Shown here: positions 4,301-22,586 of the stretch, one piece after another
Position numbering within the stretch: the first letter of the stretch is position 1
Layout of the letters: each line of letters opens with the position of its first letter
DNA from: Antrihabitans stalactiti
GTDB lineage: Bacteria > Actinomycetota > Actinomycetes > Mycobacteriales > Mycobacteriaceae
Direction of reading: 5' to 3'
Assembly (NCBI RefSeq): GCF_012932915.1
Contig: NZ_VCQU01000001.1
Coordinates: 372,001-436,000 of the forward strand
DNA: 64,000 bases
The notes under the pieces: generated by a model
Told to the model about the DNA's origin: nothing
Databases searched by the model: none
The model's input: only the letters and a program-made list of their open reading frames with translations
Position numbers and translations under genes: made by a program

Positions 4301-5070
4301 GACAGACCATAGAGGAACTCCGCACCGCCATCGCCGAAGGCGAACTCACCTGCCACTACCAACCCAAGGTCAGCGCCGCCGACGGGCAGGTGCACGGCGT
4401 CGAGGCCTTGGTCCGGTGGAACCATCCGGTCCGCGGATTACTCGTTCCGGACCAGTTCCTCGCCCTGGCCGAGCAGGGTGGCTTGATGCGTCCGTTGGCA
4501 ACGACGGTCCTCGACCTCGCGCTGAGCCAGGCGCGGAGCTGGCACGACCAGGGCAACGACCTGTCGGTCGCGGTCAATCTTTCGGTGACGAACTTGCTCG
4601 ACGTCGACCTGGTCACCGACATCAACCGCCTGTTGCGCATCCATCGGATGCCCGCCAGCACGCTCATCCTCGAGATCACCGAAAGCGTGCTGTCCACCGA
4701 TTCGCTGCGGTCGCACAGCGTCGTCGAAGGGCTGCGACGGCTCGGGATCGGCCTGTCGATCGACGACTACGGCACCGGCTGGTCGTCGTTGGCGCGTCTG
4801 CAGGACATGGACGTCGACGAGCTCAAACTAGACCAGGTGTTCGTCGCACACCTCAGCGAGGATCCCCGCTCGATCGCGATCGTGCGCTCGACCGTCGCGC
4901 TCGCGCACAGCCTCGGTGCATCACTCGTCGCAGAAGGCGTCGAGGACGAAGCCACCTTGGAAGCGTTGCGCCGCTACGGATGTGACATCACGCAGGGCTA
5001 CTTCCACAGTCCGCCGCTACCGGCCGAAGAACTCGACGCGTGGCTTCCCCGCCAGTCCGCTCGGGCGTGA
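1366..5070 (+). CDS. Membrane c-di-GMP protein with two GGDEF domains and one EAL domain
   Basis: A 1234-residue protein for cyclic-di-GMP turnover at the membrane. Order seen: N-terminal membrane segments (about 1-265), a first GGDEF-like domain whose signature is degenerate (RFQGGEF, residues 359-365), a second set of membrane segments (about 490-810), a canonical GGDEF domain (RLGGDEF, 886-892) and an EAL domain (EAL at about 1013). The EAL domain keeps the expected NLS, ITES, DDYGTG and VAEGVED motifs, so phosphodiesterase activity is plausible; the second GGDEF looks cyclase-competent. The start is TTG with GGAGGT 8 nt upstream. Two membrane-GGDEF units in tandem suggest an internal duplication. 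The last 54 nt overlap the opposite-strand CBS gene. Confidence 0.9.
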   Translation: MLDDLAVLVFAGFATASAVWAWLRDGNSRRRTWLALACGLGAWTVGTVVSTYYESLPPHTALLLFAVGAGAALLCFPVSPDPTPRAQLLLDATIVAGSLFVVSWVSVLGSVYRTDADTRLAYTLAVASPVADVLIATTAIMVWVRAGNAPLRTLGLLSAGIMLMALADSAIAFASARGEQQLDGWIDLGCIVAFGVLGIAALSSGGEPASASPRTVPVHARLWLPYVPLLLAAGIGVGAMWHSVHSGPLRAVAVILLVAVLVRQFVVLAENRRLTVTVSRQTLRDRLTGLASRTLFLDRLEQAVQRQRMELTPLTVLRLDLDDFEAVTSRLGHAAGEEVLIRVAERLTGCLTSTDSLARFQGGEFAALIEGPVEDALVAADRVLESFTRTFVFDGAALSIRPSIGVTVASAAAVDTTTEGLLSQADVALIAAKNAGGGCLRSHVPGSPPPLAARMAMPATTAATGQDPLPSAASESLRSVRAHWLSSTVPSARSVPIMLGLLLIGVLIYGGSTQIRDHAGRLALFDSWLFDGLMLGAAALVAARAWLVSSERAAWSLVSAGMASSALGDVVLAVFVPEGQSPSIADPFYLAFYPVVYAGLALLLRSRLRRLPMAIWLDSVTAGLTLAAVAAAIAYGPIHAATIGTPLTVVVGLAYSMGDLLLLALAVGALAVLGWRAEQRWGLLVAGFISYAAADTAYLFATAGGRYTEGSTIDTLWPVASLLVAVAAWRATTRRPARSRSELAIWAPPMLCTATAVTLLVLDHDSPLPRLAVVLAALTLIAVTARFAVTFREVTALADSHRQAMTDDLTTLANRRAMATALTAAAFEYSAKDAGDERSGPGLLLIDLDRFKDINDALGHHVADQLLCQVADRLSQSVRPSHLLARLGGDEFAVLLPAGADLPAARTQADRLIAALQRPFELDEMAVQVEASIGIALCPQHCPHPEDLLQRADAAMYLAKRSPTRIAVYDSADDPTDDRQTIEELRTAIAEGELTCHYQPKVSAADGQVHGVEALVRWNHPVRGLLVPDQFLALAEQGGLMRPLATTVLDLALSQARSWHDQGNDLSVAVNLSVTNLLDVDLVTDINRLLRIHRMPASTLILEITESVLSTDSLRSHSVVEGLRRLGIGLSIDDYGTGWSSLARLQDMDVDELKLDQVFVAHLSEDPRSIAIVRSTVALAHSLGASLVAEGVEDEATLEALRRYGCDITQGYFHSPPLPAEELDAWLPRQSARA

Positions 5071-5556
5071 GCACTCCGGCCAACTGACGATGCCGATCGG
5101 ATGGCCGTAGTAGACGACGGGAATCGAACGCAGCCCCGATTGCAGCATCGTTTCCAGGATTTCCGGCAGCGGCGTCCGGAGCCCGACGCAGAAGGGCGGG
5201 AGGGCGAAGTTGAGAACCGACGACGTCAATTCGGCGGGCAGAACACTGTGATCGGCATCGGTGAGCGCCCACGACACCGCTTTCTGAGTCCTCGCCACCG
5301 AATCGGCGGTGATGACGTTGACAAGGAAACCGGCCTCGTCGACGACGGCAATCGTCGTCGCGCCCGAGTTGGCCAGCACACGTGCGGCCGCGTCCAACTG
5401 GATCCCGACTTTCACCAAGGGAATGGAACAGCTCATCAGATCGGCAGCGCACAATGGTGCCCGATTCTCGGTGACCTCGACGCGGGGTGATGCGCTCTTT
5501 TCTGGTCGGCGGACCCGCGTGGTCCTGTGCAGCGGGAGCCACTTCATCGTGGTCAT
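5017..5556 (-). CDS. CBS-domain pair protein
   Basis: A 179-residue protein with two CBS motifs in tandem (about residues 30-85 and 105-160), a module that usually binds adenosyl nucleotides and regulates a partner. No catalytic domain is attached, so it is likely a free-standing regulatory CBS protein. An in-frame start lies 54 nt upstream, but AAGGAGG 5 nt before the ATG at 5556 fixes the choice. Its final 18 codons including the stop run antisense to the 3' end of the GGDEF-EAL gene, so the short tail after the second CBS motif is encoded by sequence under constraint from both strands. It is divergent from the AraC gene. The ligand is unknown. Confidence 0.8.
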   Translation of the reverse strand: MTTMKWLPLHRTTRVRRPEKSASPRVEVTENRAPLCAADLMSCSIPLVKVGIQLDAAARVLANSGATTIAVVDEAGFLVNVITADSVARTQKAVSWALTDADHSVLPAELTSSVLNFALPPFCVGLRTPLPEILETMLQSGLRSIPVVYYGHPIGIVSWPECSRPSGLAGKPRVEFFGR

Positions 5557-5730
5557 CTGCGCCTCCTTGTCCGGGCTGTGCGCGTAGGAAACCAGGTTGC
5601 GGACCCGCAATCAACAGGCCGCGCCGAGCGTCTTCGTTTTCGGGGCAGGTCTGTTCCGATTCCGGCCAAAGTGGCGTATCTTCTGCGCAACGGCCGGGAC
5701 CCCGCACATTTCTCTGGCTGAAGGTGGTAG

Positions 5731-6705
5731 ATGGAAACAAGTTCTTTGGTCATCGAGCGCAACGAGTTTTCTACTCGCGATAGCGACACTGCAGTAGATT
5801 TCCTGCGCAGGGTCTATGTGGACAACCAGCCACGGTTCGCCGTCGATGTGCGAAACACCGAGTTCGCGATTCGGTCGGCCGCAACTCCGGCTATCGCCGT
5901 CGACAACATGCGCGCCACGATGAACTTCGGGATCGACATCGAGTCCTTCGACTATCTACTTGTCCTGATGCAGACCAAGGGCCAGGTCGATGTGGAGGAC
6001 CGTGCCGATCGGGTCCGTGCACGACCGGGCGACACGTATCTCTTTCCGCCGGGTATTCCCCTGACCATCCGCTGGCACGACCCCGAGATTTGTGCACTCC
6101 GTTTCCCGCTGGCCCGGATCGGTGCAGTGGCTGCGGAGCTCACGGGCATCGACGGCGCCGACCTGCGTTTCGAGGCGATGCAACCGCTCTCCGCAGCGAG
6201 CAACGCGTCCATGCGCCGCATCCTCGGCTTCGTCGGTCGCGAACTGCTGCAACCAGAGTCGGCGATGAGCAGCCCACTCGTGGCCGACCAGATGTCGAGG
6301 CTGGCTGCGGCGACGGTGCTGTCTGCGTTCGCGAACTCGACGATGACTCGCGACTACCAATCGGGCCCCGGTTACGTCCCGCCCGCCGTGTTGCGACGTG
6401 CAGACGCGTTCATCGAAGCCAACGCCGATCAAAGCCTCACGATCGGTGAGATCGCCGCCCATGCCGGCGTCACGTCTCGTGCCTTGCAGTACGGCTTCCG
6501 GCAACACCTCGGCATCACGCCGATGGGTCGGTTACGGCAGGTCCGCCTCGAACGCGCCCACCTCGACTTGCAGGCAGGCGACCAGACACGAGGTGACACG
6601 GTCGCTGCGATTGCACTGCGGTGGGGATTTGCGAAACCCGGTCGGTTCGCGATCGAGTACCGCAAGGTCTACGGCTGTCCGCCGAGTCACACGCTGCGGA
6701 CCTGA
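5731..6705 (+). CDS. AraC-family transcriptional regulator
   Basis: A 324-residue regulator. The N-terminal 200 residues resemble the AraC-binding-like sensor of the AraC_binding_2/ArpR-type proteins, and the C-terminal 100 residues form the double helix-turn-helix (a first helix pair around 'TIGEIAAHAGVTSRALQYGF' and a second around 'VAAIALRWGFAKPGRFAIEY'). AAGGTGG precedes the ATG closely. It is divergent from the CBS gene and ends only 3 nt before the convergent glycosyltransferase. No operator is obvious in the 174-nt divergent gap, and the inducer is unknown. Confidence 0.85.
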   Translation: METSSLVIERNEFSTRDSDTAVDFLRRVYVDNQPRFAVDVRNTEFAIRSAATPAIAVDNMRATMNFGIDIESFDYLLVLMQTKGQVDVEDRADRVRARPGDTYLFPPGIPLTIRWHDPEICALRFPLARIGAVAAELTGIDGADLRFEAMQPLSAASNASMRRILGFVGRELLQPESAMSSPLVADQMSRLAAATVLSAFANSTMTRDYQSGPGYVPPAVLRRADAFIEANADQSLTIGEIAAHAGVTSRALQYGFRQHLGITPMGRLRQVRLERAHLDLQAGDQTRGDTVAAIALRWGFAKPGRFAIEYRKVYGCPPSHTLRT

Positions 6706-6708
6706 CCG

Positions 6709-7818
6709 CTAAGCCTCTTCGGCCGCCTCGAGTATTCGGTCCGCGCCGCGCACGGCACCGTCGGTTTCCCGGACCCGCGCACCGATGCTCGCCGCAGCCT
6801 GGCGATGGCTGGGCACGTCGAGAAGTTCGGTCAGTGCTCCGCGGATTCGCCGGCGTCGGGCGCTCCTCGAAAGTAGCAGGCCCGCACCCGCTTTGGCGAT
6901 TGCATTGCCTACCATGGCTTGGTCCGCCAGCGGATTGATGGGGATCACCAAGACCGGCAGGTCGTAGGCCAGTGCCCGGAAGGTGGTGGCATGTCCGCCG
7001 TGCCCGATCACCGCAGCGCAACCCGGCATCAGTTCGTTGTGCGGGAGGTAGCGGTGAACGGTCGCATTGTCCGGTGCGTCGAGGTCGGCAGGGTCGAGCG
7101 AAGGTCCCGTGGTCACTACAACTTCGATGTCCAACCCGGCGACCGCGTCGAGTACCTTCTGCAGGATCCTCCGTTGGCCGGCGAAAGCAAGAGTGCTGAA
7201 GCTGACCAGCACGCGCCTGCTCGGTGCGAGGTCTGCACGGTCTGCGCGGTCGGTCGGCGCGTCGGACACCGCGCCCGACCAGACGACGTTCGCGGGTACT
7301 TCACGCTCCCCCGCCGGGTCGAGTTCTCGGTCACTGCACACGACCACCAAATCCGCTGCGTTCCATAATGTTCGAGCGTTGAGGCCACGGAGACGGGCGA
7401 GCGTCCCGATCGGTCCGCGCGCAAACGCGCCGTCGAACCAGGCAAAGAACGCATGGACGAGGGCGATGTACCGCACGCCTGCCTGTCGGACCGCGGCCAG
7501 CACACCCAGCAACGCAACGTCGATCACCACCACGTCGGCGGGGTCTTCGTCGAGCATCGCGAGTAGATCGCGACCCATGCCGGTACTGGTCAACACTCCC
7601 AACAAGGCGATCGTCGAACGCACCCCAGGTGCGACAACGGGCGACCACGCGGGTGCATGGTCGTAGGCGCGAAATTCGAAGTCCGCCAACTGCTCTCGTT
7701 GGCTCTCCTGCCCCAGAAGGCGGACCCGATGGCCCCGCGACTGCAACACCCTGGCGATCCCCAACGCGGGCGGAAGGTTCCCACCCCCGTCGTACGTCGC
7801 GAACAGAATGTCAGCCAT
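6709..7818 (-). CDS. GT1-type glycosyltransferase (MGT-like)
   Basis: A 369-residue UDP- or dNDP-sugar-dependent glycosyltransferase of the macrolide/glycolipid GT1 group. The N-terminus (ILFATYDGGGN...GHRVRLLG) is the acceptor-side Rossmann half. The C-terminal half carries the donor-binding stretch with HGGHATT and the downstream PINPLADQ motif. The open frame continues about 450 nt upstream, but that extension overlaps the next gene out of register; the ATG at 7818 gives the normal family length. It is the last gene of the DUF2236 / SRPBCC-DUF5995 / glycosyltransferase run, 47 nt after the preceding stop, so glycosylation of a lipophilic product of those genes is a reasonable guess only. 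Confidence 0.8.
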   Translation of the reverse strand: MADILFATYDGGGNLPPALGIARVLQSRGHRVRLLGQESQREQLADFEFRAYDHAPAWSPVVAPGVRSTIALLGVLTSTGMGRDLLAMLDEDPADVVVIDVALLGVLAAVRQAGVRYIALVHAFFAWFDGAFARGPIGTLARLRGLNARTLWNAADLVVVCSDRELDPAGEREVPANVVWSGAVSDAPTDRADRADLAPSRRVLVSFSTLAFAGQRRILQKVLDAVAGLDIEVVVTTGPSLDPADLDAPDNATVHRYLPHNELMPGCAAVIGHGGHATTFRALAYDLPVLVIPINPLADQAMVGNAIAKAGAGLLLSRSARRRRIRGALTELLDVPSHRQAAASIGARVRETDGAVRGADRILEAAEEA

Positions 7819-14172: not shown

Positions 14173-15060
14173 TCAGAACGGGAACACATTTGCCTCGTCC
14201 AGTGCACCGAGCAGTGTTTCGACCAACGTCGACGGTTGGTTTCGGTTCCACGCCAAGGCCAAATCGATCGTCTCGGCCCCGCTGATATCGCGGAACACAA
14301 CGCCGGCCAAGGTCAGTGCCCGCACCGATTCAGGGACCAGCGCGATACCGAGCCCTGCTGCGACCAGTGCCAGCAGTACCGACGTGCCGGGGGCTTCGTG
14401 CTCGCGGCGCGGAGTGAAACCCGCTGCGCGGCAACTCCTTGTCACCACATCGTTGACTGCGGAATGAGTATCGGAGTACATGACGAAATCGTCGTAGGCG
14501 AGGTCGCTGACCTCGAGGGCTGGTTCCGTGCTGAGTCGGTGGTCGATCGGCAGTGCCAGAACGAGCTTCTCCGTCGCAATGTTCCGGACGACGATGTCGT
14601 CGCCGGCGACAGGTGGTCGCAGGACAGCGAGGTCCAGGTGGTTCGTACGCAATCCCTCGACCAGACCCGGCGTCAAAAGGTCGCCGTGTATTTCGAGGGC
14701 AACACCAGGAAGACGTTGTTTCGTCGCGCGGGCGATGATCGGCAGCCGGTCGAAGGATGCGGTGCCGGTGAAGCCGATCCGAATCAGCCCGGCTCGGCCG
14801 TCGGAGATGCGGCGGACTGCGCGTGCGCTCGACTCGAGGCTCTCCAGGTTGCGGACCGTTTCGCGGTAGAAGAATTCGCCAGAGGGCGTCAGGCTGACCT
14901 GGCGGGTGGTTCGCGCGAGGAGCGTGACGCCGAGTTCTGCTTCGAGCTGGCGGACCGATTGCGACAATGCCGGCTGAGCCAAGCGCAGTCTCGCCGCAGC
15001 CCGCCCGAAGTGCAGTTCTTCGGCGACGGCGACGAAATGCTCGAGGTGTCGCAGTTCCAT
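14173..15060 (-). CDS. LysR-family regulator (BenM/CatM/CatR-like)
   Basis: A 295-residue LysR regulator. The N-terminus MELRHLEHFVAVAEELHFGRAA with AQPALSQSVRQLE is the form seen in BenM/CatM/CatR proteins that respond to benzoate or cis,cis-muconate. The periplasmic-binding-like effector domain spans 90-295. It is divergent from benA with a 174-nt gap that contains a T-N11-A palindrome, so activation of benA by an aromatic or muconate signal is inferred. A second regulator of a different family closes the same cluster. Confidence 0.85.
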   Translation of the reverse strand: MELRHLEHFVAVAEELHFGRAAARLRLAQPALSQSVRQLEAELGVTLLARTTRQVSLTPSGEFFYRETVRNLESLESSARAVRRISDGRAGLIRIGFTGTASFDRLPIIARATKQRLPGVALEIHGDLLTPGLVEGLRTNHLDLAVLRPPVAGDDIVVRNIATEKLVLALPIDHRLSTEPALEVSDLAYDDFVMYSDTHSAVNDVVTRSCRAAGFTPRREHEAPGTSVLLALVAAGLGIALVPESVRALTLAGVVFRDISGAETIDLALAWNRNQPSTLVETLLGALDEANVFPF

Positions 15061-15234: not shown

Positions 15235-16626
15235 ATGACCGGAACCTTGGATCACGTACAAGCCACCCTCGACAACGCCGTCATCGAGGATGCCGACGCT
15301 GGTATCTACCGTGCGAACAGAAGCATCTTCACGGACGAAGAGGTCTTCGAACTCGAGATGAAGCACATCTTCGAGGGCAACTGGATCTACCTCGCGCACG
15401 AGAGTCAGCTTGCCAATCCCGGCGACTATTTCACCGTCTACATGGGTCGTCAGCCTGTCGTGATCACTCGCGACAAGGACGGTGACCTGCACTGCCTGAT
15501 CAACGCCTGTGCACACCGGGGCGCGATGATCTGCCGCCGAAAGACCGACAATCGGACCACCCTCACCTGCCCGTTCCATGGGTGGACTTTCCGCAACGAC
15601 GGCACTCTGCTCAAGGTGAAGGACCCCGACGGCGCAGGCTACCCGGAGACCTTCGATGTCGAAGGATCGCACAACCTGACCAAGGTGCCGCGCTTCGAGA
15701 GCTACCGCGGCTTCCTCTTCGGCAGCTTGAACCCGGATGTGTCGTCACTCGAGGATCATCTCGGCGACTCCACCAAGGTCATCGACATGCTGGTCGACCA
15801 GTCGCCAGACGGTTTGGAAGTTCTACGCGGCGCCTCCTCGTACACCTTCGACGGCAACTGGAAGGTCCAAGCCGAGAACGGCGCGGACGGGTACCACGTC
15901 ACCGCAACCCACTGGAACTACGCGGCGACGACGTCGCGTCGCAACGACGGGCAGTCGAAGAACACAACCAAGGCGCTCGACGCCGGCGGCTGGGGCAAGT
16001 CCGGCGGCGGCTACTGGTCCTACCCCAACGGACACCTGTGCCTCTGGACCTGGGCGGCTAATCCGCAGGACCGCCCGCTGTGGGATCAGATGGACGCGCT
16101 GAAAGAGAAGTTCGGCGACGCCAAAGGCGAGTTCATGGTCAAGGGCTCCCGCAACCTGTGCATCTATCCGAACGTGTATCTGATGGACCAATTCAGCACA
16201 CAGATAAGGCATTTCCGCCCGATCGCGCCGAACAAGACCGAAGTCACCATCTACTGCATCGCGCCGAAAGGTGAGAGCAAAGCGGCACGCTCGCACCGGA
16301 TCCGGCAGTACGAGGACTTCTTCAACGCATCAGGTATGGCGACGCCGGACGACCTCGAAGAGTTCCGCTCGTGCCAGCTCACGTTCCAGGCGACCAACGC
16401 ACCGTGGAACGACATGAGCCGCGGCGCCGAGCACTGGCTCACCGGACCCGACCCCGTTGCAGAGGCTCTCGACATGCACAAGGTGATCTCCGCTGGCGTC
16501 AAGAACGAGGACGAAGGGCTGTTCACCGTTCAGCACGGGTATTGGCGCAGAACACTTCTCGACGCCGTGGAACGGCAGCGCACCGCGGAGACGAACAACG
16601 TGAACTCGAAAGAGGTTGTCCGATGA
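15235..16626 (+). CDS. benA: Benzoate 1,2-dioxygenase, large (alpha) subunit
   Basis: A 463-residue Rieske non-haem iron oxygenase alpha subunit; with BenB and the BenC reductase it converts benzoate to the 1,2-cis-dihydrodiol carboxylate. The Rieske cluster residues are C92, H94, C112 and H115, and the mononuclear-iron region has NGADGYHVTATHW. Overall sequence and length fit BenA rather than toluate or anthranilate homologues, though those cannot be excluded. The frame opens 63 nt earlier, but GGAGGA before the ATG at 15235 decides the start. It is the first gene of the ben operon and overlaps benB by 4 nt (ATGA). Confidence 0.92.
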   Translation: MTGTLDHVQATLDNAVIEDADAGIYRANRSIFTDEEVFELEMKHIFEGNWIYLAHESQLANPGDYFTVYMGRQPVVITRDKDGDLHCLINACAHRGAMICRRKTDNRTTLTCPFHGWTFRNDGTLLKVKDPDGAGYPETFDVEGSHNLTKVPRFESYRGFLFGSLNPDVSSLEDHLGDSTKVIDMLVDQSPDGLEVLRGASSYTFDGNWKVQAENGADGYHVTATHWNYAATTSRRNDGQSKNTTKALDAGGWGKSGGGYWSYPNGHLCLWTWAANPQDRPLWDQMDALKEKFGDAKGEFMVKGSRNLCIYPNVYLMDQFSTQIRHFRPIAPNKTEVTIYCIAPKGESKAARSHRIRQYEDFFNASGMATPDDLEEFRSCQLTFQATNAPWNDMSRGAEHWLTGPDPVAEALDMHKVISAGVKNEDEGLFTVQHGYWRRTLLDAVERQRTAETNNVNSKEVVR

Positions 16627-17144
16627 CCGCGAGCACCGCCGAAAAGCGTTCGGCCGTAATAGATCAGACGACGATCGAGCAGTTCCTCTACCGCGAGGCC
16701 CGCTACCTCGACGACCGCGAGTTCGAGATGTGGCTGACCTGCTACGCCGACGACGTCGAGTACTGGATGCCGAGCTGGGGCGACGACGATCTGCTCACCG
16801 AAGACCCACAAACCGACATCTCGCTGATCTACTACGAGAACAAGGGTGGCCTGGAGGACCGGGTGTTCCGAATCCGGACCGAACGGTCCAGCGCCACATC
16901 GATTCCGGAACCTCGGACAAGCCACAACATCAACAACGTCGAGGTCATCGAGCGCCGCGGCGATATCGTCGATGTCCGTTTCAACTGGCACACAATGTAT
17001 TTCCGATACAAGACGATCGACCCGTACTACGGCACCTCGTTCTACACGATCGACTTCTCCGGGCAGACCCCGCTGATTCGCCGCAAGACCGTCGTGCTCA
17101 AGAACGACTACATCCACCATGTCGTCGACATCTATCACTTCTGA
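16623..17144 (+). CDS. benB: Benzoate 1,2-dioxygenase, small (beta) subunit
   Basis: A 173-residue beta subunit with the NTF2-like fold of ring-hydroxylating dioxygenases. EQFLYREARYLDDREFEMWL and the C-terminal RRKTVVLKNDYIHHVVDIYHF are the hallmark ends of BenB/XylY. It has a structural role in the alpha3beta3 enzyme. The start overlaps the benA stop (ATGA) and it ends 31 nt before the fused reductase gene, so all are on one message. Confidence 0.92.
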   Translation: MTASTAEKRSAVIDQTTIEQFLYREARYLDDREFEMWLTCYADDVEYWMPSWGDDDLLTEDPQTDISLIYYENKGGLEDRVFRIRTERSSATSIPEPRTSHNINNVEVIERRGDIVDVRFNWHTMYFRYKTIDPYYGTSFYTIDFSGQTPLIRRKTVVLKNDYIHHVVDIYHF

Positions 17145-17175
17145 CCGCCTCGCCGTCACCGAGAGAGGAGCTCCC

Positions 17176-19860
17176 ATGACTCACCGCGTAGCACTGTCCT
17201 TCGAAGACGGCGTCACTCGTTTCATCGACTGCAACGACGGCCAGACCGTCGCCGATGCGGCGTACCGGTCACGCATCAATATTCCGCTCGACTGCCGCGA
17301 CGGCGCGTGCGGAACCTGCAAAGCGATGTGCGAATCGGGAGACTTCGACGGTGGAAACTACATCGACGACGCACTCACCGCGAATGAAGCCGCGAGCGGA
17401 TATTGCCTGCCGTGCAGCATGACTCCGCGCTCGGACCTGGTGTTGCAGATCGCGAGTACGTCCGCAGTGGCGAAGACCAAAGCTGCGTCGCACACGACAA
17501 CTGTGACCGCTGTCGAAACGCTGTCGCCGACGACGATGCGCCTCGCGGTGAAGGCGCCGTCGGACGGGCTGACGTTCCTGCCAGGCCAATACGTCAACAT
17601 CACCATCCCCGGCGGCGACCAGACTCGGTCGTATTCGTTCAGCAGTGCGCCGGGATCGGACGAGCTGGACTTCCTGATCAAGCTGACGCCAGGTGGCCTG
17701 ATGTCCACCTACTTGTCCGAGCACGCGAAGGTCGGCTCGGCTGTCACCTTCACCGGGCCGCACGGCAGCTTCTTCCTGCGCGAGGCCGAACGTCCCGCGC
17801 TACTACTGGCGGGCGGTACGGGACTGGCGCCGATCCTGTCGATACTTCGCAAGCTGGAACAGGATTCGAGCACTCGACCGGTCCATCTCGTGTACGGCGT
17901 AAGTACCGACGACGACGTTGTCGAACTCGACACCATCGCCGGCCTCGCCAAAACTCTCGACTCCTTCACGTGGGACTACTGCGTTTCCGATCCCGCGTCC
18001 TCGGCGTCCAACAAGGGTTACGTCACGAGTCTTGTTCGCCCAGAACATCTCAACGGCGGCGACGTGGCCGTGTATCTGTGCGGTCCGCCTCCGATGGTGG
18101 AGTCCGTCCGCACCTACTTCGCCGACCAGGGCGTCGAGCCGACCGGCTTCTACTACGAGAAATTCGCGCCTGCCGCAGCAACCACCGTTGCGGCGATCAC
18201 CGAGGTCGAGGAGCCGGAAGCGGCACCAGAGGCCGTCGAGACTGTCGAACCAGCTACCGTCGAATCACCCATCGCTACAACAGTTTCCGCAGAGAAACGC
18301 ACGCTGTTCGGACGCGTGATCTTCGACCGGCGCGACTATGCCGGCCTCGCTGGCGTTGGCGCACCTGCTTCGCGTACCGAGGAATTGGCGTCGATGCGAG
18401 CCATCGCCGGGCAACGCGTCGCCAAGCCCGGTTCGGATGCCGAAGCGACCCCGCTCGATCGTGGTGCCGGGGTCGTCGAAGCGCCCGATGCTCGAGCCGT
18501 TGCCGGGCAATGCATCTGGACCGAACGAGAGATCGCGCCGCTGATCGCACCCCGCGCCGAGGTTGTTGCGCAGGCAGTGTCGACCTCCGATGGCTACGAG
18601 ATCGGCGAAGAGCATCCGTCCGTGCACGAATCCGACGCCGTCTTCGAGGCGCGCCGAGCACTCGAACTGGGCGCATTGGAATTGGTCATCGGCCGGTTGT
18701 CCTCACGCCAGATCGCCGGCTACCGGTTACTCGCCGAGGCGACAACGCGGTACGTCGAGGGCGACCGGTTTGTCGATGCAGCCGCCTACACCGAGACGAA
18801 CGCAGCGTTTCACGACTACCTGTTCAGCCAGACCGGCAACGAGCATCTGCTGCGCGCGTATCAAGCACTCGGCGTCAAAGCAGCGATGGCCGACGCGTTG
18901 CGCAACGCAACGTGGTGCGAACCTCGTTGCGCGCAAGATCATCTGGACATCGTCGACGCATTCGAGGCACAGGACCGGGAGCGAGCGAGGACGCTCATCG
19001 CCGACCACGCGGAGCGGTCGAAGATCACGATGAAACGGGCAATGCAGGAGACGGTTGCGAGCAAGCGCCCGAAGTTCGTCAGTCCAGGTCGGTTCGCCGG
19101 CAAGTCCGTCCTGATCACCGGTGCAGCACAAGGCATCGGCGAATGTGTCGCTCGCCGGATCGCCGCCGAGGGCGGCAGCCTGATCCTGGCCGACCGTTCG
19201 GAACTCGTCGACTCACTGGCAGAGGAACTCGGCAACGACACCGTCAGCACGACCAGTGTGTTGGCGGACCTCGAGACCTGGGAGGGCGCGTCGGCCGCCG
19301 TCGAAACCGCAATGGCAGCCCACGGCCGGATCGACGTCTCGATCCACGTTGTCGGCGGCACCATCTGGGCCAAACCGTTCGCCGAATACCCACCGGATCA
19401 GATCGAGAAGGAGATCTCGCGATCGTTGTTCCCGACCCTCTGGTCGTGCCGGGCGGTACTCCCCCACATGATCGAGAACGGCGGCGGCACCATCGTCAAT
19501 GTCTCGTCGGTCGCGACTCGCGGAGTCCACCGCGTCCCTTACGCCGCAGCCAAAGGCGGTGTCAACGCGATCACCTCGGCGTTGGCGTTGGAAGCCGCGC
19601 CCCACGGAATCCGCGTTGTGGCGACCGCACCGGGCGGGACGGACGCCCCGCCTCGTCGCGTCGCTCGTGGACCCGCGCCCGCCACGGACCAGGAGAAAGA
19701 CTGGTACCAGGCCATCGTCGACCAGACCGTCGAGTCGTCCCTGCTCAAGCGGTACGGCACGCTCGACGAACAGGCCGCGGCGATCTGCTTCCTAGCCTCC
19801 GACGAGGCGTCCTACATCACCGGCACGATCCTTCCGGTCGCCGGCGGCGACACGGGCTAG
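17176..19860 (+). CDS. benCD: BenC-FCD-BenD triple fusion: dioxygenase reductase, FCD domain and cis-diol dehydrogenase
   Basis: One 894-residue frame. Residues 1-330 are BenC: plant-type [2Fe-2S] with C40, C45, C48 and C80, FAD motif RSYSFSS (151-157), NAD motif AGGTGLAP (212-219) and the YLCGPPPM end. Residues 331-480 are an Ala/Glu/Pro/Val-rich linker. Residues 485-625 resemble the FCD effector domain of GntR/FadR regulators, with metal-type histidines H546, H589 and H611, but no winged helix. Residues 638-894 are BenD, an SDR with TGAAQGIG (648-655), S778, Y789 and K793. It would reduce the oxygenase and then rearomatise the diol to catechol. GAGGAG precedes the ATG at 17176. No stop or frame change separates the parts. 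Confidence 0.9.
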   Translation: MTHRVALSFEDGVTRFIDCNDGQTVADAAYRSRINIPLDCRDGACGTCKAMCESGDFDGGNYIDDALTANEAASGYCLPCSMTPRSDLVLQIASTSAVAKTKAASHTTTVTAVETLSPTTMRLAVKAPSDGLTFLPGQYVNITIPGGDQTRSYSFSSAPGSDELDFLIKLTPGGLMSTYLSEHAKVGSAVTFTGPHGSFFLREAERPALLLAGGTGLAPILSILRKLEQDSSTRPVHLVYGVSTDDDVVELDTIAGLAKTLDSFTWDYCVSDPASSASNKGYVTSLVRPEHLNGGDVAVYLCGPPPMVESVRTYFADQGVEPTGFYYEKFAPAAATTVAAITEVEEPEAAPEAVETVEPATVESPIATTVSAEKRTLFGRVIFDRRDYAGLAGVGAPASRTEELASMRAIAGQRVAKPGSDAEATPLDRGAGVVEAPDARAVAGQCIWTEREIAPLIAPRAEVVAQAVSTSDGYEIGEEHPSVHESDAVFEARRALELGALELVIGRLSSRQIAGYRLLAEATTRYVEGDRFVDAAAYTETNAAFHDYLFSQTGNEHLLRAYQALGVKAAMADALRNATWCEPRCAQDHLDIVDAFEAQDRERARTLIADHAERSKITMKRAMQETVASKRPKFVSPGRFAGKSVLITGAAQGIGECVARRIAAEGGSLILADRSELVDSLAEELGNDTVSTTSVLADLETWEGASAAVETAMAAHGRIDVSIHVVGGTIWAKPFAEYPPDQIEKEISRSLFPTLWSCRAVLPHMIENGGGTIVNVSSVATRGVHRVPYAAAKGGVNAITSALALEAAPHGIRVVATAPGGTDAPPRRVARGPAPATDQEKDWYQAIVDQTVESSLLKRYGTLDEQAAAICFLASDEASYITGTILPVAGGDTG

Positions 19861-19880: not shown

Positions 19881-22586
19881 GTGACGAACGTTCTTCCGCC
19901 GGTCGGTCGCGCTTCGGTGCTGGCCGAACTGGTCGGCGCCGTCAGCGGCGTGGCGGCAAGCTTCGTCGTCGTCGACGGTGTGCCCGGAGTTGGGCGAACG
20001 TCGACGCTCGAGCAGTTGGCGCTTCGATTGCAGGATGTCAACCCGGACATACGAATTCAGCACGCTTCCGGAGTTCCGTGGGAATCGTCGGTGCCGTTCG
20101 GTGCGCTTCGGCAGTTGCTGCCGACAGTGAATACCGTTGATGCAGAACAGGATTACGAGACCCTCGCGGCCGCGATCGCCGGAGCGCTACGGCAGACCGA
20201 GCAAAGTACGGTGATTCTTCTCGACGACGCCCACGACGTCGACGCGCAATCGTTGAAGGCCCTCGCCTCGCTGATTCGCCATCATCGCAGCGACGACGTG
20301 GCAGTGGTCTGTGCACGCCGTCCCCGGCCCGACGGTGACGTCCGCGCTCACGAGGTCCTCGATCGCGCTGCCGACCGAACGGTCCACATCGGTCCGCTGA
20401 CCATCACCGAGGTCGCCGAACTGGCGGCCGGTCGTGGAGTCGTGTTGTCGCCGTCGGCAGCGGGAGAACTGACCCGCCACACCGGCGGACTGCCTCGGCA
20501 TGTCCTCGCCCTCCTCGACGAGCTGCCACGTGATACGTGGAAAGGCGTGCGTCCGGACCTGCCTGCACCGGCTTTCGTCGACGCGGCTGTCCGCGCCACG
20601 CTCGCGAACTGCGACGACGACGCCCGCAGACTTGTGTGCACCGTCGCTGTGCTCGGCAGTGCCTGCGCGCTCCCGATCGTCTGTGCGATTGCCGACATCC
20701 GGGATCCGTGGCCGGTCGTCGACATCGTCGAGCAACTCGGTCTTGTTGTGGTGCAACGGCAATCGTCGGCAACCGTACTCGACACACCTGATCCGATGGC
20801 TCGGGCTGCCGTCCTGGCGACCATGAGCCGGTCGGACCGCGCGCAGTTGCATCGGGACGCGGCAGCGGTTCTCGAGGATCCTGCCGACGTGTTGGCGCAC
20901 ATCGCAGACGCGGAGCCGCTACCTGACTCCGCCCTGTCCGGCAGGCTGGCCACCCTGGCAGGTGAGCGGGCCGCGCATGGCGAATGGGCTACTGCTGCAA
21001 GACTGTTCGAGCTTTCGAGTCGGTCGGCCATCGAGCCACATCAGCGTCAAGACATGATGATCCGCGCTGTCGACGCCATGATCGGTGCGGGCGATGTTCG
21101 TACGGCGGCCGGTCATGTGGCCGAAATCGAAAGCCTGCGTGAGACTCCGATGCGCAACGCCGTCTTGGGATATCTGGCAATACTGCGCGGGCGTCCGCAG
21201 GAGGCGAATGCGCGTCTGGAGCGCGCGTGGCAGTTGGTGCGGGCCAGGCACGAGCCCGATGTCGCTGCGGTGATCTGCCATCGTCAAGTACTGCACAACC
21301 TCGCCCGCTGTGACGGTGAAAACCTTGTGCGCTGGGCGGACCGGGCGGTCGAGCTGGTCGGTGCCGACAACGCGACTGCCGTAGAAGCGCAAGCAATTCG
21401 CGGGTTGGGACTCGGCGGAACGGGACGCGTCACCGAGGCTTTGGCCAGCTATCGCGACCTGTGGGGCCACGCGAGCACGGGTGCGGTTGGGCAGCGCGTA
21501 CAGATGGGCGCGGGCTGGCTTCATCTCGCAACCGACGACGTCGAACTGGCTCGTGCCGAGCTCGAATCGGCGTTGCCTACAGACTTTCTGGGCGGGTCGA
21601 CGCGAATATCCCTCTGGGCGCGTGCCTGGTTGGCCCGGACCTACTTCGTCACCGGCGAATGGAACGACGCCCTTCGCCTGGTAGCGGAGGGCGCCGACCT
21701 GGTCGAGCGGTCCGGAGCCGCGTTGATCCGCCCCTTGCTCCAATGGACGGCGACGCAAATTCACGCCTTGCGGGGCGATTGGGATGCTGCGGCGGACAGC
21801 GCCCGGCTCGGCAACGCAGGCGCCCGGGACTACGAGATCATGCGCGTGCCATCGGCTTTGGCGCACGCCGCGATCGCCGAGGCGCGCGCGGACTACGCCG
21901 CTGTCATCAGAGCGCTTGCGCCGCTGACCGAGCCCTGGGCGGGCAACGACATCGCCGAACCCGGATTCTGGCCATGGCCCGATGTCTATGCGAACGCACT
22001 CGTCCAAGAGGGACGGCTCGCCGATGCCGACAGTTTTCTCACTAAGCACGAAGCGCGCGTTGCGGTCCGAGGTCATCGCTCCGCCCAAGCTCGCCTCGGG
22101 TGCGCCCGCGGTCGCCTACTCGGTGCTCGCGGCGACATCGATGCTGCACGTGCGGCATTCGACGCTGCGCTTGCGCTGCTCACGCCGCTGCCGCTGGTCT
22201 ACGACCGCGCTCGGGTGAACTTCGCGTACGGACAGACATTGCGTAGAGCCGGAAAACGGCGCGAAGCAGACAGCGTGATCTCCGCGGCACGCGACGGCTA
22301 CCTCTCGATCGGCGCGACGACCTATGTGCGTCGCTGTGATCGCGAACTCAAAGCCGGTGGACTGCACGCCGTGCTGAAAGACCGCGCTCACGACGATCTC
22401 ACTCCCCAGGAGGACGCGGTCGCGGGCTTGGTGGCAACGGGAATGACGAACCGCGAGGTCGCGTCCGAGCTGTTTCTCTCCGTCAAAACTGTGCAGTTCC
22501 ACCTGACGCGGGTCTACGCGAAGCTGGGCATCCGGTCGCGCGCCGAACTCGCAGCCGCTCGTGGACCTGGCAGCGCGCCGGAATAG
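19881..22586 (+). CDS. benR: LAL-type LuxR regulator, BenR-like
   Basis: A 901-residue large ATP-binding LuxR regulator. The P-loop at residues 33-40 is GVPGVGRT, with Arg in place of the usual Walker-A Lys; Walker B is VILLDDAHD near 115. A long helical-repeat middle follows, and a LuxR HTH closes the protein (LTPQEDAVAGLVATGMTNREVA...). The GTG at 19881 is 20 nt after the benCD stop and has only a weak ribosome site. Corynebacterium glutamicum has a LuxR-type BenR in the equivalent place in its ben cluster, so activation of ben transcription is the best inference. The frame is open far upstream but that part is antiphase to benCD. Confidence 0.8.
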   Translation: MTNVLPPVGRASVLAELVGAVSGVAASFVVVDGVPGVGRTSTLEQLALRLQDVNPDIRIQHASGVPWESSVPFGALRQLLPTVNTVDAEQDYETLAAAIAGALRQTEQSTVILLDDAHDVDAQSLKALASLIRHHRSDDVAVVCARRPRPDGDVRAHEVLDRAADRTVHIGPLTITEVAELAAGRGVVLSPSAAGELTRHTGGLPRHVLALLDELPRDTWKGVRPDLPAPAFVDAAVRATLANCDDDARRLVCTVAVLGSACALPIVCAIADIRDPWPVVDIVEQLGLVVVQRQSSATVLDTPDPMARAAVLATMSRSDRAQLHRDAAAVLEDPADVLAHIADAEPLPDSALSGRLATLAGERAAHGEWATAARLFELSSRSAIEPHQRQDMMIRAVDAMIGAGDVRTAAGHVAEIESLRETPMRNAVLGYLAILRGRPQEANARLERAWQLVRARHEPDVAAVICHRQVLHNLARCDGENLVRWADRAVELVGADNATAVEAQAIRGLGLGGTGRVTEALASYRDLWGHASTGAVGQRVQMGAGWLHLATDDVELARAELESALPTDFLGGSTRISLWARAWLARTYFVTGEWNDALRLVAEGADLVERSGAALIRPLLQWTATQIHALRGDWDAAADSARLGNAGARDYEIMRVPSALAHAAIAEARADYAAVIRALAPLTEPWAGNDIAEPGFWPWPDVYANALVQEGRLADADSFLTKHEARVAVRGHRSAQARLGCARGRLLGARGDIDAARAAFDAALALLTPLPLVYDRARVNFAYGQTLRRAGKRREADSVISAARDGYLSIGATTYVRRCDRELKAGGLHAVLKDRAHDDLTPQEDAVAGLVATGMTNREVASELFLSVKTVQFHLTRVYAKLGIRSRAELAAARGPGSAPE

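Follow-up and report, generated by a model that had tools for sequence, protein, structure and literature searches.

BenC and BenD joined through a regulator-type FCD domain in the benzoate locus of Antrihabitans stalactiti and other actinobacteria

A single gene in the 64,000-nucleotide stretch of Antrihabitans stalactiti DNA analysed here (the window) encodes a BenC reductase, an FCD domain and a BenD cis-diol dehydrogenase in one polypeptide. The gene (17176..19860, plus strand) is a single uninterrupted frame of 894 codons with one terminal stop, as the first-pass annotation of the window had reported. That observation is confirmed, and the accompanying interpretation, that the FCD domain acts as an allosteric sensor or as a tether that channels the diol, is partly supported. 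A ligand-binding role for the FCD domain is plausible because the domain is an FCD by both sequence and predicted fold, shows no DNA-binding helix in a Pfam search and keeps the residues of a metal site. We put the probability at about 0.5 that the product is a bifunctional enzyme in which the FCD serves as a metal-dependent carboxylate-binding and organising module. Two features were absent from the first-pass annotation: a linker with repeats, spanning roughly residues 335-473, and N542, which is probably the fourth ligand of the metal site.

The fusion gene lies directly downstream of benA (15268..16626; large subunit of benzoate dioxygenase; TIGR03229, 794.1 over 780.95) and benB (16674..17144; small subunit; TIGR03232, 261.4 over 225.55), both on the plus strand and both with an unsettled start codon. 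In this gene neighbourhood a divergent LysR-type regulator gene (14173-15060, minus strand) is located upstream of benA, and a gene for a LuxR-type regulator with an ATPase domain (19881..22586, plus strand; GerE and AAA_16) adjoins the fusion gene downstream. A probable ribosome-binding site, GAGAGAGGA, was read from the sequence at 17161..17169 on the plus strand. There is an alternative, longer in-frame start at 17119, but it falls within benB.

The BenC part (residues 1-332; 17176..18171, plus strand) includes the [2Fe-2S], FAD and NAD domains (Pfam Fer2 10-84, FAD_binding_6 109-199 and NAD_binding_1 210-312). It scores 485.8 bits against the NCBIfam equivalog NF040810 (cut-off 430), with residues 3-332 matching positions 1-332 of the 333 in the profile. 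The BenD part (residues 639-894; 19090..19857, plus strand) belongs to the SDR family (adh_short 643-825), matches the full length of equivalog NF040811 (1-256 of 256; 422.9 bits, cut-off 380) and contains the motifs TGAAQGIG (TGxxxGxG) and YAAAK (Tyr-x3-Lys). The computed mass of the 894 aa chain, 94.6 kDa, is close to the roughly 93 kDa that had been predicted. In a genome-wide scan with the BenD profile, the fusion was the sole BenD above the cut-off (426.4 bits; next place 126.7 bits), and the second-best match to the BenC part in the genome is only 32% identical.

The FCD domain occupies residues 485-626 (18628..19053, plus strand). Pfam FCD (PF07729) matches residues 489-613 with an E-value of 4.9e-16 (59.7 bits against a cut-off of 24.3; profile positions 2-124 of 125). 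An AlphaFold2 model computed from 59 aligned FCDs is all-helical, with a pLDDT of 90.7 and a pTM of 0.84. When this model was used to search the PDB with Foldseek, the best matches were McbR/YncC (4p9f), DhdR with L2HG (9vkn), the VanR protein Atu1419 with citrate (6z74) and PmiR, and Ps5454 (3c7j) was found at rank 23. E-values for McbR, DhdR, VanR and Ps5454 were about 2e-4 to 1e-3, and the best 50 of 305 matches have identities of 11-23% and, as far as can be judged from their titles, are all regulators of the GntR type or FCD domains of such regulators. Sequence searches of the PDB did not find a related solved FCD, the single sequence returning three unrelated weak hits and a profile none. 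Among the regulators of the same genome, the closest FCD scored 22.6 bits against a profile of fusion FCDs. Pfam match and predicted fold agree that the middle domain is an FCD. No helix-turn-helix family, of the GntR/FadR winged type or any other, was detected in the fusion protein by Pfam (E up to 1), in line with the earlier statement that this FCD lacks a DNA-binding helix. A DNA-binding helix hidden in the linker was also considered and rejected, as the linker has no Pfam match and is mostly of low confidence in the model.

Residues N542 and H546 (18799..18813), H589 (18940..18942) and H611 (19006..19008), all on the plus strand, form a predicted metal site. The three histidines are at the positions given in the first-pass annotation, and all four residues are invariant in the 70 fusions aligned. 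In a broader set of fused and unfused FCDs the histidines are present in 90/90 and the asparagine in 87/90; the 43 unfused FCDs among them keep all three histidines, and three have threonine in place of asparagine. In the available portions of the respective papers, zinc in the VanR protein Atu1419 is chelated by Asn137, His141, His192 and His214 (PMC7797058), and nickel in Ps5454 is bound by Asn144, His148, His192 and His214 (PMC7674646). The ligand spacing in the fusion FCD (+4/+43/+22) is nearly that of Ps5454 (+4/+44/+22; PMC7674646) and differs from that of the zinc site in Atu1419 at the middle interval (+4/+51/+22; PMC7797058). Both residues and spacing place the domain in the metal-binding FCD subgroup, which has Asn or Asp plus three His, and N542, H546, H589 and H611 most likely hold a divalent metal. 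R493 and Y538 match Arg86 and Tyr133, the citrate-contacting residues of Atu1419, by spacing only; R493 is kept in 70/70 and Y538 in 68/70 fusions, and the position of Y538 is occupied by Phe in 42/43 unfused FCDs. A cysteine pair adjoining H589, W580-C-x-P-x-C585 (18913..18930, plus strand), is nearly invariant in the fusion clade (C581 in 67/70 and C585 in 69/70), and the 43 unfused rows have Ile or Val at the position of C585.

Between BenC and the FCD, about residues 335-473 (18178..18594, plus strand) make up a linker that is probably disordered, with pLDDT mostly below 60 when averaged in blocks of 10 residues. Up to three tandem repeats of approximately 32 aa, with the core R-x-[IV]-A-G-Q, are found in it. 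In the window, these are a degenerate first copy (RTLFGRVIF, residues 375-407; 18298..18396) identified by alignment, and two strict copies identified by motif and alignment (RAIAGQRVA, residues 408-439, 18397..18492; RAVAGQCIW..IAPL, residues 440-458, 18493..18549), all on the plus strand. When a strict motif (R-x-[ILVMTA]-[AGMT]-G-Q) was counted in the linkers of 70 fusions, 0, 1, 2 and 3 copies were found in 8, 11, 32 and 19 linkers, a mean of 1.89 against 0.004 in shuffled sequences. Copies are 28-43 residues apart, or 60-66 residues apart, as if a degenerate copy lay between them. The full-length model places short, low-confidence strands at the repeats, and its pTM is 0.48, so the placement of the domains is not fixed by the model. 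The AGQ core was found in no linker among 44 BenC-FCD loci with a separate BenD, where linkers are mostly short. Three of these BenC-FCD proteins (L138, L139 and L140) have long linkers made of a different repeat, IEARPVGYTPPAPG-like, and linker repeats may consequently have arisen more than once.

The possibility that the linker motif is a general targeting tag, for encapsulin or microcompartment loading, was not supported. A longer form of the core was found in 93 frames of at least 100 aa in the scanned loci, comprising 91 BenC frames (non-deduplicated and recognised via a Fer2 string) and two minus-strand frames. A profile built from 22 linkers matched the fusion in its own genome with an E-value of 5.6e-30, and five weak hits had E-values of 2.3e-4 to 1.1 (150/275 candidates scored). 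Applied to 61 family genomes, with up to 88 candidates scored in each, the same profile gave seven matches with E-values up to 7.5e-9; these are in frames of 916-1036 aa that are all fusions, and the match in genome G423 is likewise in a fusion frame. Six other weak hits were read: L202, L212, L213 and L214 have one AGQ string each, L201 and L203 have none, and the exact core in L212 is in what looks like a TetR regulator.

The same three-domain order was found elsewhere. A contig scan in which the best 80 of 132 relatives were kept returned full BenC-FCD-BenD frames in 80/80 loci, all actinobacterial by title, though this is not a frequency because keeping the best matches favours fusions. 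An identical three-part frame in every one of these loci argues that the frame is not the product of a sequencing error. Record titles include the genera Rhodococcus/Rhodococcoides, Williamsia, Gordonia, Mycolicibacterium, Nocardioides, Amycolatopsis, Saccharopolyspora and Geodermatophilus. In a family sample of 401 genomes, 132 had a match at an E-value of 1e-75 or better. A one-frame fusion is present in 77 of the 132 (62 in one piece and 15 as two same-frame pieces), and BenC-FCD with a separate BenD was found in 42 using fetched DNA. BenC without an FCD, and with BenD nearby, accounts for five. Four have a BenC frame on a short piece of DNA that contains neither FCD nor BenD and was probably truncated by a contig end, and four more (G611, G731, G755 and G775) fall outside this classification. 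Matches were found in 4 of 396 genomes in a phylum-wide sample and in 32 of 298 in an order sample. Two forms occur in the window's own genus, the fusion and plain BenC plus BenD (L010/L144, genome G002; L009, genome G001), and a third genome of the genus, G003, gave no match at 1e-70.

Matches were also found in 114 plasmid records, and a single stretch covering 80% or more of the query was present in only one of them, the Tsukamurella record NZ_LR134459.1. The 2583-nt coding region at 5001-7583 in that record carries the bare annotation BenC, and the gene table, which is possibly incomplete, shows no benD next to it. As the whole fusion is labelled BenC only, the missing benD could pass for a gap in the pathway.

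Phylogenies of BenC and BenD were built from 95 of 142 rows, comprising 47/94 fusions (the odd locus numbers and L001), 43/43 unfused sets and 5/5 FCD-less loci. Copies or probable copies (L011, L093, L095, L096, L097-L124, L144 and L150) had been excluded; some species may appear twice among the rows, as copies were not all checked individually. In both trees the fusion label needs two changes, and the 47 sampled fusions all group together in a single clade (SH-aLRT 98 and 94; L094 as display root), which fits one fusion event. The sole non-fusion members of this clade are L136 and L137, which have no FCD and a separate BenD. Their BenC proteins end with the linker motif in a single copy, which may be left over from a longer linker or may still serve a function. 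The three remaining FCD-less loci lie among or beside BenC-FCD genomes, and these positions suggest several independent losses of the FCD, although gain and loss are here read from quick tree searches with a root that is a choice.

In the unfused loci (44 loci in 43 genomes), the BenD domain starts 14-95 nt past the BenC-FCD stop codon, and it is in a different frame from BenC-FCD, the same one in 44/44. Since these genes are closely packed and BenD is in another frame, fusion needed a frame change. The earlier state was probably a BenC-FCD gene followed closely by an independent BenD gene in another frame. This arrangement is also common, and for that reason BenC most likely acquired the FCD first and was fused to BenD later.

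The FCD is under stronger constraint in fusions than in unfused relatives. Among 47 fusions, mean pairwise identity is highest in the FCD (76.4%, against 72.1% for BenC and 72.9% for BenD), whereas in 43 unfused sets it is lowest in the FCD (67.3%, against 74.1% and 75.8%, respectively). The ratio of FCD to BenC divergence is 0.85 in fusions and 1.27 in unfused relatives. The FCD diverges less than BenC in 964/1081 fusion pairs and 72/903 unfused pairs, the pairs being non-independent, and FCD limits for these counts were taken from a profile of fusion FCDs, which may slightly favour fusions. Among columns conserved within each clade, those fixed to different residues in the two clades number 5/47 in the FCD, 10/247 in BenA, 4/80 in BenB, 2/137 in BenC and 0/99 in BenD, with BenA recovered in 43/47 fusions and 40/43 unfused rows. 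Relative to BenC and BenD pooled (2/236), the FCD is enriched in such columns (Fisher p = 0.0017), and BenA and BenB pooled (14/327) give a weak signal (p = 0.019), in tests that treat columns as independent though they are not. With six long-branch rows removed, the FCD count was 6/50 and the p value for BenA and BenB was still 0.019.

We infer the enzyme activities from the equivalog matches and the known pathway. The BenC part would pass electrons from NADH to the BenA/BenB oxygenase, which would convert benzoate to the cis-diol, and the BenD part would oxidise the diol to catechol and remake NADH. With NADH consumed by BenC and regenerated by BenD, the two fused activities would form a redox-neutral pair. 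The FCD is a regulator-type ligand domain minus its DNA-binding part, and it would most likely bind a carboxylate, probably benzoate or, via its alpha-hydroxy-acid group, the diol. Several FCD ligands (lactate, citrate and 2-hydroxyglutarate) are alpha-hydroxycarboxylates, as is the benzoate diol, and this motivates the proposal that it is the diol that is bound. The FCD would probably also aid oligomerisation of the chain, and the repeated linker motif may dock to a partner, most likely the oxygenase. The presence of BenC without FCD in five of the 132 matching family genomes, with BenD nearby, indicates that the FCD is dispensable. A more elaborate form of this proposal is speculative and we give it little credence: the FCD, recruited from regulators, would be a metal-dependent holding site for the unstable diol and three repeats would dock the trimeric BenAB oxygenase, forming a benzoate metabolon that assembles itself and recycles its cofactor, with the diol passing from oxygenase to FCD to BenD and the clade-specific cysteine pair as a possible redox switch.

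Other roles for the FCD have to be considered. It could be an allosteric gate that senses benzoate or the diol and switches the reductase or the dehydrogenase; the FCDs of regulators bind effectors allosterically, as described in the available portions of PMC7797058 and PMC7674646, and the metal-site residues are kept. However, the FCD is connected to BenC by a long linker of low confidence, so that tight coupling to the reductase is less likely, and some relatives lack the FCD; we regard a gate as unlikely, if a serious alternative. To the same limited degree we would credit a module for oligomerisation or spacing only, with conserved residues that are structural and no small-molecule role. 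The zinc of Atu1419 holds helices at a tetramer interface, and without the three histidines its Tm falls from 52.6 to 34 °C, according to a portion of PMC7797058; the absence of the FCD from several lineages points the same way. The conservation in fusions of R493 and Y538, spaced like the citrate contacts of Atu1419, argues against a purely structural module.

A moonlighting role in which the FCD signals the state of the metabolites to the transcription machinery, perhaps through contact with the neighbouring LuxR-type regulator, seems very improbable. A gene for a LuxR/ATPase regulator does follow the fusion gene here and, from what is printed in part of the Gordonia report, also there, and the Tsukamurella fusion is likewise followed by a gene annotated as a helix-turn-helix regulator, but the fusion itself has no helix-turn-helix family. 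A sequencing or assembly artefact, or a chance open frame, is scarcely credible with the same frame in all 80 kept loci, which come from named records. A metal-dependent carboxylate-binding and organising module is the reading that we prefer.

The fusion places the ligand domain of a transcription factor inside a catabolic enzyme, where, in the fusion clade, it is more conserved than the enzymes that flank it. Should the FCD bind the diol or a metal, it would be an example of a regulator's sensor domain becoming part of an enzyme, and cis-diols or catechol could be produced with a naturally occurring fusion that recycles its cofactor. Because relatives exist in fused, half-fused and FCD-less forms, the role of the FCD can be addressed by comparison. 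No functional study of the FCD in the fusion, and no mention of the linker repeats, was found in the open-licence literature searched.

Among known systems, the metal-binding FCD regulators (Atu1419/VanR, Ps5454, DhdR and DgoR) have the same predicted fold as the fusion FCD, and Atu1419, Ps5454 and DgoR, in the portions of their descriptions available, have an Asn or Asp plus His metal site as predicted here. Those proteins are transcription factors with a DNA-binding domain, whereas the fusion carries two enzymes instead. The BenC-FCD reductases of 43 genomes have the same BenC to FCD order as the fusion, but BenD is encoded separately in these genomes. BopZ of Rhodococcus sp. 19070, reportedly about 201 residues longer than BenC and with a C terminus that was not recognised (Haddad, Eby and Neidle, 2001), is presumably a reductase of this type with a separate BenD. 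By annotation, benABCD of the Pseudomonas putida plasmid pWW53 covers the same catalytic steps as the fusion, but there BenC and the diol dehydrogenase have a gene each (1011 and 777 nt with stop) and no FCD lies between them. In the available portion of PMC11858498, a Rhodococcus benC product is called an FCD domain-containing protein and benD is treated as its own gene.

The first-pass annotation took BenC and BenD to be separate proteins in described ben clusters, and this holds for pWW53 but has a printed exception. In Gordonia alkanivorans YC-RL2, according to part of a 2019 paper (PMC6362181), the benC and benD genes form a fusion that includes an FCD domain, and the ben locus has a LysR-type regulator upstream and a LuxR-type regulator downstream. 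The few sentences on the fusion in that part of the paper call the FCD C-terminal, whereas here it lies between BenC and BenD. The architecture was therefore already noted in 2019, and its distribution, its placement in one clade, the linker repeats, the metal site and the difference in rate are added here.
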